64,000 nucleotides of DNA from Micromonospora sp. M71_S20. GTDB lineage: Bacteria; Actinomycetota; Actinomycetes; Mycobacteriales; Micromonosporaceae. Position numbers and translations under genes: made by a program. The notes below the pieces were generated by a model. It did not search any database, had not been told where the DNA came from, and saw only the letters and a program-made list of their open reading frames with translations. Location: contig NZ_RCCV01000001.1 in the NCBI RefSeq assembly GCF_003664255.1, positions 4,464,001 to 4,528,000 of the forward strand. Direction: 5' to 3'. Positions within the stretch are counted from its first letter, which is position 1; every line of letters starts with the position of its first letter. Positions 53,800 through 60,985 of the stretch are shown here, piece by piece.

Positions 53800-55443
53800 T
53801 CACGACTCCGACGCGACGCCGGCGCCGGTCTCCCGCAGCCGGCCGTCGGCGAGCCGCAGCCAGCGGTCCACGCCGATCGCCGCGAGGAACCGTTCGTCGT
53901 GGCTGATCACGACGAACGCGCCCTCGTACGCGTCGAGCGCGCTCTCCAACTGGCCGACGCTGACCAGGTCCAGGTTGTTGGTCGGCTCGTCGAGCAGGAG
54001 CAACTGCGGTGCCGGTTCGGCGAACAGCACGCAGGCCAGGGTGGCGCGGAGCCGCTCGCCGCCGGAGAGCGCCCCGACCGGGAGGTGGGCGCGGGAGCCC
54101 CGGAACAGGAAGCGGGCGAGCAGGGTCATCCGCTGCGCCTCCGGCATCGCGGGCGCGTACGCGGCCAGGCTCTCCGCCACCGTGCGGTCGAGGTCCAGCA
54201 GGTCCAGCCGCTGGGACAGGTACGCGATCCGGCCGTCGGCCCGCCTGGTCCGACCGCCCTCCGGCTGCACGTCGCCGCTGACCAGGCGCAGCAGGGTGGA
54301 TTTGCCGGCGCCGTTCGGACCGGTGAGCGCGATCCGCTCCGGCCCCCGGATCGTGAGGTCCACGCCGTCACCGGCGAACAGGGCACGCTCGCCGTAGCGG
54401 ACCTGCATCGCCTCGCCGTGGAAGACCGTGCGACCGGCCGGAAGGTTGGTGCCGGGCAACTCCAGCGTGATCCGCTGCTCCTCGCGCAGCGCGCGGCCCG
54501 CCTCGTCGAGCCGGGCCTTGGCGTCGCCGACCCGCGCGGCGTGCGTCTCGTTCGACCGGCCCGCCGACTCCTGGGCGCCCCGCTTCATGGTGCCGGCGAA
54601 GATTTTCGGCAGGCCGGCGCTCTTCAGGTTGCGGGCGGCGTTGCCGGCCCGGCGCTCGGCCCGCTCGCGCGCCTGCTGCATCTCCCGCTTCTCCCGCTTG
54701 ACCTCCTGCTCGGCGTGGCGGACGTTCTTCTCCGCGACCTCCCGCTCGGCGCGCACCGCCTCCTCGTACGCGGTGTAGTTGCCGCCGTAGGAGCGGACCT
54801 CGCTCCGGTCGAGTTCGAGGATGCGGTCCATCCGGTCCAGCAGCGCCCGGTCGTGGCTGACCAACAGCAGGCAACCGCTCCAGTCCTCCAGCACGGCGTG
54901 CAGCTTGCGGCGGGCGTCGAGGTCCAGGTTGTTGGTGGGCTCGTCGAGCAGCAGGACGTCGGGGCGCCGCAGCAGTTGCGCCGCCAGGCCGAGGGAGACG
55001 ACCTGACCGCCGCTGAGGGTGTGCAGGGGCCGGCCGAGGGAGACGTCGTCGAGGCCGAGCCGGTCCAGTTGGGCTCGGGTGCGCTCCTCGATGTCCCAGT
55101 CGTTGCCGATCGTGGTGAAGTGCCTCTCGTCGGCGTCCCCGGACTCGATGGCGTGCAGCGCCCCGAGTACCGGCGCGATCCCCATGACCTCGGCCACGGT
55201 CAGGTCGCCGGCCAGCGGAAGGCTCTGCGGCAGGTAGCCGAGCAGCCCGTCGACGGTCACGGAGCCGCCGGTGGGCCGGTGCTCGCCGGCGATCAGCTTG
55301 AGCAGCGTGGTCTTGCCGGCGCCGTTCGGCGCGACGAGGCCGGTGCGGCCGGCGCCCACCGTGAAGGACAGGCCCTCGAAGACCGGGGTGTCGTCCGGCC
55401 AGGAGAAGGAGAGGCGCGAACAGATGATGAACGCATCGGACAT
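53800..55443 (-). CDS. ABC-F family ribosome-associated ATPase (antibiotic-resistance type candidate)
   Basis: A 547-aa soluble protein with two ABC domains: Walker A APNGAGKTT and GPNGAGKST, signatures LSGGQVVSLGL and LSGGERLRATL, Walker B VLLLDEPTNNLDL and LLLLDEPTNNLDL. Between them is a long charged coiled-coil linker (about 225-310, rich in Arg/Glu, with KIFAGTMKRG), the ABC-F interdomain arm that reaches the ribosome peptidyl-transferase centre. No membrane part. ATG 55443 follows AAGGG. A 170-nt leader with a short peptide ORF and hairpins precedes it, as in antibiotic-inducible ABC-F genes. Confidence 0.88.
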   Translation of the reverse strand: MSDAFIICSRLSFSWPDDTPVFEGLSFTVGAGRTGLVAPNGAGKTTLLKLIAGEHRPTGGSVTVDGLLGYLPQSLPLAGDLTVAEVMGIAPVLGALHAIESGDADERHFTTIGNDWDIEERTRAQLDRLGLDDVSLGRPLHTLSGGQVVSLGLAAQLLRRPDVLLLDEPTNNLDLDARRKLHAVLEDWSGCLLLVSHDRALLDRMDRILELDRSEVRSYGGNYTAYEEAVRAEREVAEKNVRHAEQEVKREKREMQQARERAERRAGNAARNLKSAGLPKIFAGTMKRGAQESAGRSNETHAARVGDAKARLDEAGRALREEQRITLELPGTNLPAGRTVFHGEAMQVRYGERALFAGDGVDLTIRGPERIALTGPNGAGKSTLLRLVSGDVQPEGGRTRRADGRIAYLSQRLDLLDLDRTVAESLAAYAPAMPEAQRMTLLARFLFRGSRAHLPVGALSGGERLRATLACVLFAEPAPQLLLLDEPTNNLDLVSVGQLESALDAYEGAFVVISHDERFLAAIGVDRWLRLADGRLRETGAGVASES

Positions 55444-55511
55444 GCGGAAACCCTTGGTGTGACGTGGGCGCGCGGGGCGCCCTGGGGACGGGATTCGGGA
55501 ACGACGGCCCG

Positions 55512-55547
55512 CGGCCACGGCGGCGGTCGACCGCCTGCCGCTGGCCG
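55512..55547 (-). promoter_or_regulatory. Leader hairpin (attenuator candidate) upstream of the ABC-F gene
   Basis: Outer arms CGGCCA/TGGCCG (55512-55517, 55542-55547) enclose the palindrome GGCGGTCGACCGCC (55522-55535). A second stem GGGCGC/GCGCCC (55466-55471, 55477-55482) lies nearer the start codon. Both are downstream of the leader peptide ORF. Confidence 0.5.
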
Positions 55548-56853: not shown

Positions 56854-56886
56854 CGACCGGCGCCCTCCCCTCCCGGGCGCCGGTCG
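56854..56886 (-). terminator. Hairpin terminator downstream of rtcB
   Basis: Perfect 12-bp arms CGACCGGCGCCC (56854-56865) and GGGCGCCGGTCG (56875-56886), 9-nt loop, beginning 4 nt after the rtcB stop codon. Confidence 0.7.
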
Positions 56887-56890
56887 GCGG

Positions 56891-58090
56891 TCATCCCTTC
56901 ACGCAGACCACCTGCTTGAGGTGCGCCACCACCTCGACCAGGTCCTCCTGCTGCGCCATCACCTGGGTGATGTCCTTGTACGCTCCCGGGATCTCGTCGA
57001 CCACCCCGGCGTCCTTGCGGCACTCCACGCCGGCGGTCTGCGCGGCCAGGTCGGCGGTGCTGTACGTCCGCTTCGCCTGCGCCCGGGACATCCGCCGTCC
57101 CGCCCCGTGCGAGGCGGAGCAGTACGCGTCCGGGTTCCCCCTGCCCCGCACGACGTACGAGCCGGTGCCCATCGATCCCGGGATGATGCCCAGGTCCCCC
57201 CGACCGGCCCGGATCGCCCCCTTGCGGGTGACCAGCACGTCGACGCCGTCGTAGCTCTCCTCCGCCACGTAGTTGTGGTGGCAGCTGATCGGCTCGTCGT
57301 AGCCGACGTGCGGGAACTGCTCCCGGACCACCCCGCAGAGCAGGGCGAGCATGACCGCCCGGTTGCGCCGCGCGTACTCCTGCGCCCACCACAGGTCCCG
57401 GCGGTAGGCGTCCATCTCCGGCGTGCCGGCGAGGAACACCGCGAGGTCGCGGTCGGGCAGGTCGGTGTTGTGCGGCAGCCGCCGGGCGACCGCGATGTGC
57501 CGCTCCGCCAGCTCCTTGCCGATGTTGCGGGAGCCGGAGTGCAGCATCAGCCACACCCGTCCCTCGTCGGCGCCGCCCTGCTCCAGGCAGACCTCGATGA
57601 AGTGGTTGCCGCCGCCGAGCGTGCCCATCTGCCGCTGGGCCCGCGTCTCCAACTGCGCCACCCGCCGGTCGAGGTCGGCGAACCGGCGCCAGAAGTCGTC
57701 CCAGCCGGCCTGCTCCAGGCCACGGACCCGGCGCGGGTCGACCGGCTTCTCCCGCTGGTTGAACCCGACCGGGATCGTGGCCTCGATCGCCGAGCGCAGC
57801 CCCGCCAGGTCGTCCGGGAGATCGGCGGCGGTCAGCGAGGTGCGCACCGCGGACATGCCGCAGCCGATGTCGACGCCGACCGCCGCCGGCGAGACGGCCT
57901 GCCGCATCGCGATGACCGAGCCGACCGTGGCGCCCTTGCCGAAGTGCACGTCGGGCATGACCGCGACGCCCTGCACCCACGGGAGCGCGCCGATGTTGCG
58001 CAGTTGCTGGGCGGCCTGCGGCTCGATGCCGTACGGGTCGGTCCAGACCCGGACCGGCGCGCGGGTGCCCGCGAGCGGGGTGTAGCTCAT
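56891..58090 (-). CDS. rtcB: RtcB family RNA ligase
   Basis: A 399-aa RtcB. Metal/guanylate-site motifs are intact: MPDVHFGKGATVGSV, the Cys-containing VGVDIGCGMSAVRT, GGGNHFIEVC, LHSGSRNIGKELAE, the CHHNYV histidines, KGAIRAG and the nucleophile His in CSASHGAGRRMSR. RtcB joins 2',3'-cyclic-phosphate RNA ends to 5'-OH ends with GTP and Mn2+, repairing or splicing tRNA. GAGGAG precedes ATG 58090. No archease gene is nearby. Immediately upstream on the same strand are a tRNA-like RNA, hairpins and a tRNA gene, probably one transcript. Confidence 0.93.
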   Translation of the reverse strand: MSYTPLAGTRAPVRVWTDPYGIEPQAAQQLRNIGALPWVQGVAVMPDVHFGKGATVGSVIAMRQAVSPAAVGVDIGCGMSAVRTSLTAADLPDDLAGLRSAIEATIPVGFNQREKPVDPRRVRGLEQAGWDDFWRRFADLDRRVAQLETRAQRQMGTLGGGNHFIEVCLEQGGADEGRVWLMLHSGSRNIGKELAERHIAVARRLPHNTDLPDRDLAVFLAGTPEMDAYRRDLWWAQEYARRNRAVMLALLCGVVREQFPHVGYDEPISCHHNYVAEESYDGVDVLVTRKGAIRAGRGDLGIIPGSMGTGSYVVRGRGNPDAYCSASHGAGRRMSRAQAKRTYSTADLAAQTAGVECRKDAGVVDEIPGAYKDITQVMAQQEDLVEVVAHLKQVVCVKG

Positions 58091-58148
58091 CGTCGTCTCC
58101 TCGTGTCGTCGGCTGGTCGCCGCCGTGGGGCGGGACCTGAAGGCATCG

Positions 58149-58216
58149 ACGACCGCCCGGGAATCGAACCCGGAGGGAGTGGCCTGCACGGCCTCTCCGC
58201 GCCCAGCGCGCGGCCG
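58149..58216 (-). ncRNA. tRNA-like RNA with reduced D-arm upstream of rtcB
   Basis: Read on the minus strand from 58216: acceptor CGGCCGC pairs over 7 bp with GCGGTCG (58156-58150, one G-U). A short D-like hairpin GCGC-TGG-GCGC follows, then an anticodon-like arm GAGGC-CGTGCAG-GCCAC (one A-A mismatch; anticodon position TGC but G instead of U33), a 5-nt variable loop and a perfect T-arm CCGGG-TTCGATT-CCCGG. Total 68 nt; no encoded CCA. The missing D-arm nucleotides and G33 argue against normal decoding. It ends 59 nt before the rtcB start. Confidence 0.65.
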
Positions 58217-58249
58217 GCCCGCCGGGCGGGGCCCGACGGGTGCAGCGGT

Positions 58250-58294
58250 GGGCCGGTTCGGCACCGGGTGAGCCTCCCGGTGCTCCGACGGCCC
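58250..58294 (-). ncRNA. Structured RNA element between the two tRNA-like genes
   Basis: An outer stem GGGCCG/CGGCCC (58250-58255, 58289-58294), a symmetric 5x5 internal loop and a perfect 8-bp inner stem GCACCGGG/CCCGGTGC (58261-58268, 58276-58283) with a 7-nt loop. The strand is assigned from the flanking RNAs; the fold itself is symmetric and could form on either. Confidence 0.5.
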
Positions 58295-58298
58295 GTGT

Positions 58299-58325
58299 CA
58301 GGGCAGGGCCGAACGCCCTGCCCTG
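58299..58325 (-). terminator. Perfect 11-bp hairpin just downstream of the tRNA
   Basis: CAGGGCAGGGC (58299-58309) / GCCCTGCCCTG (58315-58325), 5-nt loop, 3 nt beyond the tRNA 3' end on the minus strand. It could be a terminator for the tRNA or a processing/protection structure in a longer rtcB transcript. Confidence 0.6.
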
Positions 58326-58328
58326 CCG

Positions 58329-58401
58329 TCCGGGACCGGGGAATCGAACCCCGTGTCTCTCGCGCCCAAGGCGAGCGGGTCAGCCAGCTCCCTCGTCCCG
58401 G
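58329..58401 (-). tRNA. tRNA-Pro (anticodon TGG), supernumerary type
   Basis: A complete 73-nt cloverleaf from 58401: acceptor CCGGGAC/GTCCCGG (7 bp), GA, D-arm GGG-AGCTGGCTGA-CCC, G26, anticodon stem CTCGC/GCGAG with loop CTTGGGC (U33, anticodon TGG), 5-nt variable loop AGACA, T-arm CGGGG-TTCGATT-CCCCG, discriminator A. No encoded CCA. The three-pair D-stem and overall sequence look unlike what I recall of the housekeeping actinobacterial tRNA-Pro. Its position upstream of rtcB suggests a specialised role. On sequence alone it could also decode CCA codons. Confidence 0.85.
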
Positions 58402-58525
58402 TGACGGTCGTGCTCCCGGTCGGCCCGTGGCGGGCGACCGGGTCGTTGCTTCCACTGTGGAGTTGGGAACGGGTGGCGTCGCCGGGTGTGGCCGGCACGG
58501 AGGTGGACGGCGGTCGGGGTGGACG

Positions 58526-58559
58526 AAAAAGCCGCCCGGCCCCGGTGGGGTGGGCGGCT
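58526..58559 (-). terminator. Intrinsic terminator of the small basic ORF
   Basis: Minus strand: AGCCGCCC (58559-58552) pairs with GGGCGGCT (58537-58530), then TTTT. It lies 18 nt after the stop codon of the 43-codon ORF, separating it from the tRNA-rtcB unit. Confidence 0.8.
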
Positions 58560-58576: not shown

Positions 58577-58708
58577 CTAGACGCGCCGCCACCCCCGTTG
58601 CCGCCCCTGTCCGGGACGGCGCCGCCCGCAGGCTGGTGTGCCCGTGGGCAGCGGGGCACCACCGCGCGGCGTCGGCCACACGGCGTCGGTGCGGGTGCGC
58701 TGCGACAC
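58577..58708 (-). CDS. Small basic 43-aa protein, function unknown
   Basis: GTG 58708 to TAG 58577 encodes 43 residues beginning MSQRTRTDAVWPTPRGGAP and ending GRQRGWRRV: rich in Arg (11), Gly and Pro, three Trp, one Cys, no acidic residues after Asp 8. Support is unusually good for such a short ORF: AGGGGAG 6 nt before the GTG, a well-spaced promoter (58779-58750) and an intrinsic terminator just after the stop. The basic, Trp-containing composition would suit RNA binding, which is speculation. No family recognised. Confidence 0.65.
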   Translation of the reverse strand: MSQRTRTDAVWPTPRGGAPLPTGTPACGRRRPGQGRQRGWRRV

Positions 58709-58749: not shown

Positions 58750-58779
58750 ACGGTAGGTGGGCCGGGACGGTGGCCGCAA
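58750..58779 (-). promoter_or_regulatory. Promoter of the small basic ORF
   Basis: Minus strand: -35 TTGCGG (58779-58774), 18-nt spacer, -10 TACCGT (58755-58750); start of transcription expected near 58743, about 35 nt before the GTG. Confidence 0.55.
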
Positions 58780-59794: not shown

Positions 59795-60985
59795 ATGAGG
59801 CCGGAGGCCGAGCCGGTGGACGTCGACGAGCCGCTGGCCGTCGACGTACCGCCCGCGCCGCACGACGCCAGCGGCGAGCGCGTGCCGACCCGCGACCTGG
59901 CCGGGCTGGCGCCGGCGGCGCGGCCGGCGCGGAGATGGACGCCGCGCCGGGTGGTCGCCACGCCGGCCGCGCTGGAGCACCCGCACGGCCGACGGATCGC
60001 CCGGCGGGTCGAGGCCTTGGGCATCGAGGTCGAGCGGCTGCGCGCCAACCGGCTCACCGGCGTCCGCGGCGCCACCGAGCGGGAGACGTACGCGCGGGCG
60101 AAGGCGACCATGGCGATCGTGGTCAGCCCGCCGTCGCGCCGGAAGCTGCAACCCATCGCGCCCAGCGCGGACTGGCGCTTCGACCTGGCGGAGGGCTGCC
60201 CGGCCCACTGCCAGTACTGCTACCTGGCCGGCTCGCTGTCGGGGCCACCGGTGACGCGGGTGTACGCCGACCTGGACGAGATCCTCGCCGGCCTGGCCGA
60301 CTACGCCGGGCGGGGCACGGTCACCAGCCGCAACGCCGGACGGGCCGCCGAGGGCACCACCTTCGAGGCGTCCTGCTACACGGACCCGCTGGCCCTGGAG
60401 CACCTCACCGGCAGCTGGCGGCGGGCGGTGGAGCACTTCGCCGGCTGGGACGCCCCGGTGCAGCTGCGCTGGACCACCAAGTACGCCGACGTCGACACGT
60501 TCGTGGGGCTGCCGCACGCCGGCCGCACCCGCGTGCGGTTCAGCGTCAACTGCCGCCCGGTCAGCGAGCGGATGGAGGGCGGCACGGCCACGGTCGCGCA
60601 CCGGCTGGCGGCGCTGCGCCGGCTCGCCCTCGACGACTACCCCGTGGGATTGACGGTCGCACCGATCATGCCGCTGCCCGGCTGGCGGGAGCACTACGGC
60701 GAGCTGCTCGACGCGGTCGCGGACGCCGTCGCCGGGGTGCCCGGGCTCGACCTGACCGCCGAGCTGATCACCCACCGGTTCACCCCGGGCAGCAAGGAGG
60801 TGCTGCTCGGCTGGTACCCGCGCACGAGGCTGGAGATGGACGAGTCCGTCCGCAGCCGCAAGTACGGCAGGTTCGGCGCGGTGAAGTACGTCTACCCGCG
60901 CGACACCATGGCCGAGCTGCGCACCTGGTTCGAGCGCGAGCTGGCCGCCCGGCTGCCGGCCTGCCGGGTCCTGTACTGGACCTGA
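59795..60985 (+). CDS. Radical SAM protein of the spore-photoproduct-lyase-like (Rv2578c) family
   Basis: A 396-aa radical SAM enzyme. The 4Fe-4S cluster motif is CPAHCQYC (CxxxCxxC, about 138-145) as in spore photoproduct lyase rather than the common CxxxCxxC spacing of other subgroups with Met. Downstream are [12 protein letters not shown] and the C-terminal [13 protein letters not shown]. An N-terminal extension of about 90 residues (acidic, then [15 protein letters not shown]) is typical of Rv2578c. The substrate is unknown; DNA lesion repair is an extrapolation. Co-directional with the HTH-DUF4180 pair (44-nt gap). Confidence 0.83.

Follow-up and report, generated by a model that had tools for sequence, protein, structure and literature searches.

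In Salmonella, the rsr-yrlBA-rtcBA locus is an RNA-repair operon that includes a transfer RNA (tRNA)-like Y RNA and is regulated by damaged tRNAs, and one suggestion made for this operon is that the tRNA-like RNA competitively inhibits a nuclease (PMC7790460). The trn operon of Anabaena comprises 26 tRNAs on a megaplasmid, is normally silent and is induced by translational stress; its protein repressor is shared by the chromosomal rtcB gene within the TrcR regulon (PMC10272220). tRNAs also occur near RtcB in Rhodococcus phages, where tRNAs and RtcB have been suggested as counters to tRNA-cutting defence (PMC13313380, PMC7824862), and changes in the anticodon loops of phage tRNAs have been proposed to evade nucleases (PMC10264068). 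Giant plasmids of Mycobacterium avium carry tRNA array units with redundant tRNAs and an altered anticodon domain (PMC12803027). Here we describe an rtcB gene of Micromonospora sp. M71_S20 and the RNA elements in front of it, on the minus strand of a 64,000-nucleotide (nt) stretch of contig NZ_RCCV01000001.1 (positions 4,464,001 to 4,528,000; hereafter the window), to which an earlier note made from the letters alone had drawn attention.

As in Salmonella, an RtcB gene and tRNA-like RNA appear to share one operon (PMC7790460), but here the RNAs are isoacceptor tRNAs of many kinds and a leader and terminator precede the unit. Also unlike in Salmonella, TROVE/Rsr (PF05731) was not found in the whole genome by profile search, in agreement with the earlier note, and neither RtcA nor RtcR was among the neighbouring open reading frames (ORFs) scanned, some of which may be wrong frames (the genome was not searched for RtcR). 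As in the Anabaena trn/TrcR system, an extra tRNA set is tied to rtcB, although there the two sit on separate replicons whereas here they are physically one unit (PMC10272220). The locus differs from phage sets of tRNAs and RNA ligase in being chromosomal in bacteria, conserved within a genus and provided with a leader and terminator. The M. avium arrays likewise hold redundant tRNAs with an altered anticodon domain in an actinobacterium, but they are plasmid-borne and the excerpted text of PMC12803027 mentions neither RtcB nor an RNA ligase. Phage tRNAs near RtcB and the Anabaena co-regulation are already known; no bacterial chromosomal rtcB operon with tRNA genes was found in the open-licence literature among the matches listed.

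Judged from its sequence, the window locus is a worn copy of a larger unit consisting of a promoter, a short leader ORF, an intrinsic terminator, extra tRNA genes and rtcB, and the evidence for this concerns layout, conservation, selection at the RNA level, duplicated anticodons, acceptor identity, changed loop flanks and a layout common with phages. In order of transcription on the minus strand it comprises a promoter-like TTGCGG-18-TACCGT (58750..58779, from a scan for promoter plus leader); a predicted leader ORF of 43 codons with a GTG start, a Shine-Dalgarno-like GGGGAG and the terminal residues GWRRV (58577..58708); a hairpin of -23.5 kcal/mol followed by TTTTT, which is an intrinsic terminator and candidate attenuator (58526..58559); the palindrome TCCACAGTGGA between the Trp and Pro array positions (58451..58461); a tRNA-Pro(UGG)-like RNA with G8 and a D stem of 3 base pairs (bp), identified by ARAGORN and by its relatives (58329..58401); an inter-tRNA hairpin of 11 bp (58299..58325); a decayed tRNA-Glu(CUC) relic (58221..58294); a tRNA-Ala(UGC)-like RNA with a stunted D arm, G3·U70, G in place of U33 and a discriminator U (58149..58216); the ribosome-binding site GAGGAG, read from the sequence (58097..58102); and rtcB, encoding a predicted RNA 3'-phosphate/5'-OH ligase of 399 amino acids (56891..58090). 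A GGAG-type sequence lies 5' of rtcB in most of the Micromonospora loci displayed.

We gathered rtcB loci from Micromonospora and its family, together with 80 named actinobacterial loci, 30 class-level loci and 80 viral contigs, removing six duplicates and dropping L209 and L211, in which the rtcB start was not found. The window RNAs are modest evidence by themselves, and it is the comparison with relatives that removes the doubt: a simple cloverleaf scan of 207 distinct regions upstream of rtcB returned 127 hits, where shuffled sequence gives 7.3, so the RNAs are real. tRNA-like sequences lie no more than 700 nt upstream of rtcB in 44 of the 133 distinct Micromonosporaceae loci tallied (a set that excludes L210 and L212-L215, which had no cloverleaf hits), and a tRNA stands on either flank in 25 of the 62 with enough sequence on both sides. 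The full order in Micromonospora is Trp(CCA), Pro(UGG), Glu(CUC), Gly(GCC), rarely Ala(UGC), and then rtcB, often followed 3' by Arg(ACG), Gln(CUG), Leu, Arg(CCG) and Cys, and most Micromonospora loci hold just a subset of it. Outside the family, tRNA-like sequences beside rtcB were found among 69 named loci at five Kribbella loci and in one Pseudonocardiaceae genome; the remaining named loci (Amycolatopsis, Streptomyces, Nocardia, Nonomuraea and others) had no tRNA within 700 nt of rtcB in the scan, and none was found near rtcB on the plasmids of one Arthrobacter and one Curtobacterium. At the class level 113 genomes have this rtcB, and eight of the 30 loci scanned carry tRNAs, three of them Micromonospora already counted. 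In a family of another order (f41), three loci have an odd tRNA labelled Arg(GCG) that ends 87-96 nt before rtcB, and a fourth has an Arg(ACG) whose end lies 54 nt from the gene; one locus of a further such family (f42) has six tRNAs 3' of rtcB.

Since tRNA genes are common landmarks, ordinary ones might simply happen to adjoin rtcB. The counts already contradict such chance neighbourhood, which we regard as very improbable: 122 of 126 ARAGORN tRNAs near rtcB are on its strand, the association recurs in several actinobacterial families and in phages, and the RNAs lie outside the Rfam-detected housekeeping set of the window's genome. The proposal of the earlier note that RNAs and ligase gene could be one unit is borne out by this conservation and shared strand, and the tRNA-like/rtcB order, for which it had suggested a comparison of relatives, proved conserved and covarying in Micromonospora. 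The palindrome TCCACAGTGGA occurs in 21 of 312 loci examined, all of them rtcB loci and two of them duplicates, and in 5 copies in the whole genome of the window; an rtcB-only operator was therefore rejected as the element is not exclusive. In several genera it comes directly behind the Trp position of the array (the window, L041, L188 and other rtcB loci), possibly with a -10-like TATGA 3' of it in Rhizocola (L041), and the region is a possible second promoter or operator. Far from the rtcB of another genome, three weak tandem tRNA matches of 33-40 bits (G690:C1:7902092-7902347) are perhaps another degenerate tRNA array.

In the window itself ARAGORN calls a tRNA-Pro(UGG) at 58401-58328 and a 'tRNA-Gln' at 58242-58148. 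The former corresponds to a 73-nt cloverleaf recognised previously (58401-58329); it has conserved relatives, a folding z of -1.6 and a minimum-energy fold that is a rod, not a cloverleaf. The Gln label was rejected for the latter, because the fold on 58216-58149 has the anticodon UGC and the G3·U70 of Ala. This RNA, seen before as a 68-nt tRNA-like RNA with a stunted D-arm, folds as a cloverleaf with a z of -1.0 (73 nt) or -2.7 (95 nt). Among its relatives L142, L145 and L151 keep G3·U70 and A73 and L115 is without the G·U pair, all four also scoring below the Rfam tRNA cut-off, while the window copy retains G3·U70 but has U73. A two-stem element described between the two RNAs is a decayed full-length tRNA-Glu, which scores 60 in full-length alignment to the array tRNA-Glu; none of 1000 mononucleotide shuffles reaches this score, the highest being 48. 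Its proper place in the array explains the element. The genome holds 50 other Rfam tRNA matches, in which stretches ARAGORN finds 49 tRNAs, and this housekeeping set includes Pro(UGG), Ala(UGC) and Glu(CUC); with Pro(UGG) and Ala(UGC) elsewhere, the two window RNAs are therefore extra. The signs of decay are one tRNA reduced to a relic and an Ala-like RNA without U33 and A73, and the partly decayed unit of this strain may now amount to little beyond rtcB and a pair of odd RNAs, even if the Pro RNA has hardly changed.

Sequence comparison points to selection on the RNAs. tRNA bodies are 87-99% identical between species, compared with 60-74% for the adjoining short spacers and a shuffled baseline of 54%, longer spacers being more conserved (Trp-Pro 86%, Trp-Glu 81%). 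The Pro RNA is 99.4% identical over 13 Micromonospora copies, and the sole difference between the window copy and the commonest form is a compensatory C:G to G:C swap at T-stem pair 51:63. All 189 cells are paired in the Gln family (9 sequences; covariation score 0.209 versus 0.070 shuffled) and all 210 in the Arg family (10 sequences, ACG and CCG pooled; 0.357 versus 0.121); slid structures fail and 0/500 shuffles reach either score, which we take as support and not proof because the shuffles ignore relatedness and related sequences alone can beat them. The acceptor stem is invariant in the array Gln. The 11-bp hairpin reported earlier is far from chance (z -5.1) and is a recurring spacer element of arrays: in relatives, all 32 spacers at the Pro-Glu and Glu-Gly positions fold into a hairpin, every sequence being distinct (mean z of -4.1 and -3.3, respectively, against mononucleotide shuffles), and the window hairpin therefore belongs to the layout.

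Array members are, from their sequences, predicted extra tRNA isoacceptors of many kinds, and 56 of 84 in 20 array-bearing relatives score above an Rfam tRNA cut-off. This departs from the Y-RNA-like regulators envisaged at first; a Y RNA/TROVE version of the operon was rejected given these isoacceptors and the lack of a TROVE hit in the genome, and the Rfam scan of the window gave no Y RNA family match (the presence of a bacterial Y RNA model in the library was not checked). We parsed 36 isoacceptor-by-genus families, omitting hits whose T or acceptor stem was weak; for every genus the housekeeping tRNAs of the window's genome served as reference. That genome has a housekeeping tRNA of identical anticodon for 35 of the 36, a count that includes a probably misparsed GTC (L115), the exception being AAC in two Kribbella RNAs, also probably misparsed; codon compensation is therefore disfavoured as the purpose of the arrays. 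Positions 1:72, 2:71, 3:70 and 73, which we take to be synthetase identity elements, match the housekeeping isotype of the anticodon in 179 of 245 cases over 35 families, where comparison with other isotypes predicts 96, as with G3·U70 in Ala, U1:A72 and G73 in Gln, A1:U72 and G73 in Trp and C73 in His. Loop positions 32, 33, 37 and 38 are unlike the housekeeping tRNA in 47 of 136 cases (34 families, 9 identical). When the housekeeping tRNAs of two genomes are compared with each other, the figure is 14 of 116; this control covers one other genome, with 30 of its 68 tRNA loci, and owes six of its 14 differences to Gln and Leu(CAG).

The main competing explanation is that the RNAs are decoys, mimics of the anticodon arm that were never meant for decoding and that soak up nucleases or keep RtcB close to its substrates. 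Such a role would suit RNAs that retain the anticodon triplet on a remodelled body: the Ala-like RNA has a stunted D arm, the anticodon stem of Trp is broken, with 39 of 60 cells pairing, and the Leu RNAs of Rhizocola, Kribbella and the L313 phage, at 74-77 nt compared with 82-86 nt for housekeeping Leu, lack the long variable arm. Some anticodon loops also have C33 or G33. A decoy, however, needs neither acceptor-end identity bases that track the anticodon nor the invariant acceptor stem of Gln, and we consider this explanation rather unlikely. Substrate, decoy and spare tRNA are indistinguishable by sequence, and it is the kept acceptor identity that favours spare tRNAs, which would be charged and would decode. 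Simple tRNA function is also at odds with the RNA right before rtcB in L201 and L204, which scores 49-52 bits with the tRNA-Sec model but has a Cys (GCA) anticodon and C33.

The same arrangement is found in phages. A tRNA lies within 700 nt of the RtcB gene in 16 of 80 viral contigs, on the same strand in every case shown; tRNA-Pro(UGG), the isoacceptor of the window, is among them in nine of these 16 loci (L313-L392), and contigs L380 and L381 are apparently the same virus. The phage record L313 encodes a portal protein, a large terminase and an integrase; it contains 29 tRNA matches in total, with 24 ARAGORN tRNAs in the 2.6 kb preceding rtcB, and an RtcB 80% identical to that of the window. 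Its Gln, Leu(UAG), Arg and Cys tRNAs are nearer the chromosomal array (0.82-0.88) than the housekeeping tRNAs (0.55-0.76), and its Ala, Asp and His tRNAs are nearer the housekeeping tRNAs. The array was nearer in 8 of 11 comparisons for L313, 3 of 4 for L314, 1 of 7 for L315 and 6 of 12 for L366, the array side taking the best of several sequences; a phage origin for all arrays is no more than possible on this comparison, which is mixed between phages. In a tree of RtcB from 51 of 57 chosen loci (L142, L188, L190, L192, L201 and L204 being too short), bacteria mostly follow families and the two closest phages are sister to the Micromonosporaceae (100/97).

Arrays might accordingly have come with phages or plasmids beside rtcB and then decayed on the chromosome as functionless relics. 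Phage rtcB-tRNA arrays with closely related RtcB exist, the Glu gene of the window is decayed, and presence of the array is patchy, requiring 14 changes on the best RtcB tree, at least 9 of them forced by well-supported branches, and being no more clustered than shuffled labels (76/500 as low). Functionless relics would nevertheless hardly keep a conserved order, an odd Pro RNA nearly invariant across species and compensatory changes, and the RtcB tree mostly tracks host families with the closest phages outside as a sister group; we judge this explanation improbable, somewhat more so than decoys.

The product of the window gene is assigned to the RtcB-family RNA ligases by its domain and motifs. 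It matches PF01139 as a full-length domain (422 bits, residues 29-399, profile search) and aligns with a solved RtcB across residues 26-399 with motifs such as GNHF, HtGSR/HSGSR and HGAGR in register; these motifs presumably include the catalytic residues, and activity on 2',3'-cyclic phosphate and 5'-OH ends is predicted. The genome encodes two further RtcB paralogues, at C1:4225367-4226695 and C1:3442179-3443207, and the genome-wide tRNA scan listed no Rfam tRNA matches near either. The first of these adjoins archease, which the earlier note had not seen; it is present in the genome, next to this different paralogue. The terminator proposed after the window rtcB (56854-56886) is a hairpin, but has no T-run and is unlisted in the terminator scan. 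Nearby genes include those for an ABC-F ribosomal protection-like protein (NF000355) a few kb downstream of rtcB (window 53800-55518, minus strand) and, in this actinobacterium, a spore photoproduct lyase-like radical SAM protein (59795-60985, plus strand).

A promoter and leader ORF precede rtcB in 106 of 145 loci of the Micromonosporaceae set, with or without tRNAs (5 of the 106 are duplicates), compared with 0 or 1 of 145 in ten shuffled sets, and a hairpin with T tail lies 3' of 82 of 90 leaders. The window terminator, thought at first to close the upstream neighbour, instead stands 3' of the short leader ORF of the rtcB unit. A generic sigma-70 consensus and terminator scan lists neither the promoter nor the terminator, the latter exceeding the loop limit of that scan. 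For a 121-nt stretch of the window, the fold of minimum energy has the leader end paired to the 5' arm of the terminator, resembling an antiterminator. A further explanation is that array tRNAs are sacrificial sensors, whose fragments or repair report tRNA damage to a regulator, as the Salmonella rtc operon is under damaged-tRNA control via RtcR (PMC7790460). No regulator was identified at the locus among the neighbouring ORFs scanned, however, and leader and terminator precede rtcB also in loci lacking tRNAs, which leaves sensors a long shot.

The position of an RtcB gene inside a row of altered extra tRNA genes, in soil actinobacteria as in some phages, suggests a repair enzyme and spares kept together for when tRNAs are cut. 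We favour, with a probability of roughly 50%, a translation-stress operon that supplies the repair ligase along with spare tRNAs, which may resist cleavage. A single transcript would begin 5' of the leader ORF, would have to cross the intrinsic terminator, and would then span the hairpin-separated extra tRNA genes and rtcB and, in many relatives, further tRNA genes after it. Toxins or phage-triggered nucleases may cut tRNAs, leaving 2',3'-cyclic phosphate and 5'-OH ends, and translation would stall; ribosomes stalled in the leader would allow the terminator to be bypassed, and the cell would produce both RtcB, to reseal its tRNAs, and replacement isoacceptors that are poor targets for the nuclease. 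More tentatively, and with less confidence than in the operon itself, the locus may be a chromosomal 'first-aid kit', in which stalling releases the ligase and a bank of cleavage-resistant replacements covering several isoacceptors; the cassette would be exchanged between actinobacteria and temperate phages of theirs, so that it could serve either side of tRNA-cutting defence.

Several results weigh against the translation-stress reading. Ribosome-mediated attenuation is inferred and not a result: a codon-position test does not indicate selection on the peptide (1024, 1008 and 742 substitutions at the three codon positions), and of 90 leaders 73 and 80 are open in the two other frames as well, so that a leader peptide under protein-level selection was rejected. 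Strong antiterminator covariation was likewise not found, the covariation test being weak; pairing of leaders with their own versus foreign terminators gave p 0.056 (mean z -0.9, 76 loci), and an alternative fold is present in 20 of 82 loci versus 150 of 1640 shuffles. In this last test, which used a shorter stretch than the 121 nt above, the window does not show the fold. Upstream tRNAs are lacking at rtcB in 89 of the 133 Micromonosporaceae loci, the near relative L002 included, and 28 of the 84 array members in 20 relatives fail the Rfam tRNA cut-off. The Pro and Ala types of Micromonospora miss it in every scanned locus that has them, and both window RNAs are below the gathering cut-off. 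The poorly paired Trp anticodon stem, the short-armed Leu RNAs and the limits of the covariation shuffles and loop control, given above, count on the same side. The observation made in the earlier note is confirmed and its interpretation partly supported.

For actinobacterial biology, the locus joins RtcB repair of cut tRNAs with replacement by altered spares, two ideas kept separate for bacterial chromosomes in the papers found, and it offers a genetically tractable place to ask what RtcB repairs in these organisms. The contents of the arrays would read out which isoacceptors are hit by actinobacterial tRNA-cutting toxins, and the locus ties chromosomal repair operons to the tRNA arrays of phages, whose purpose remains debated.

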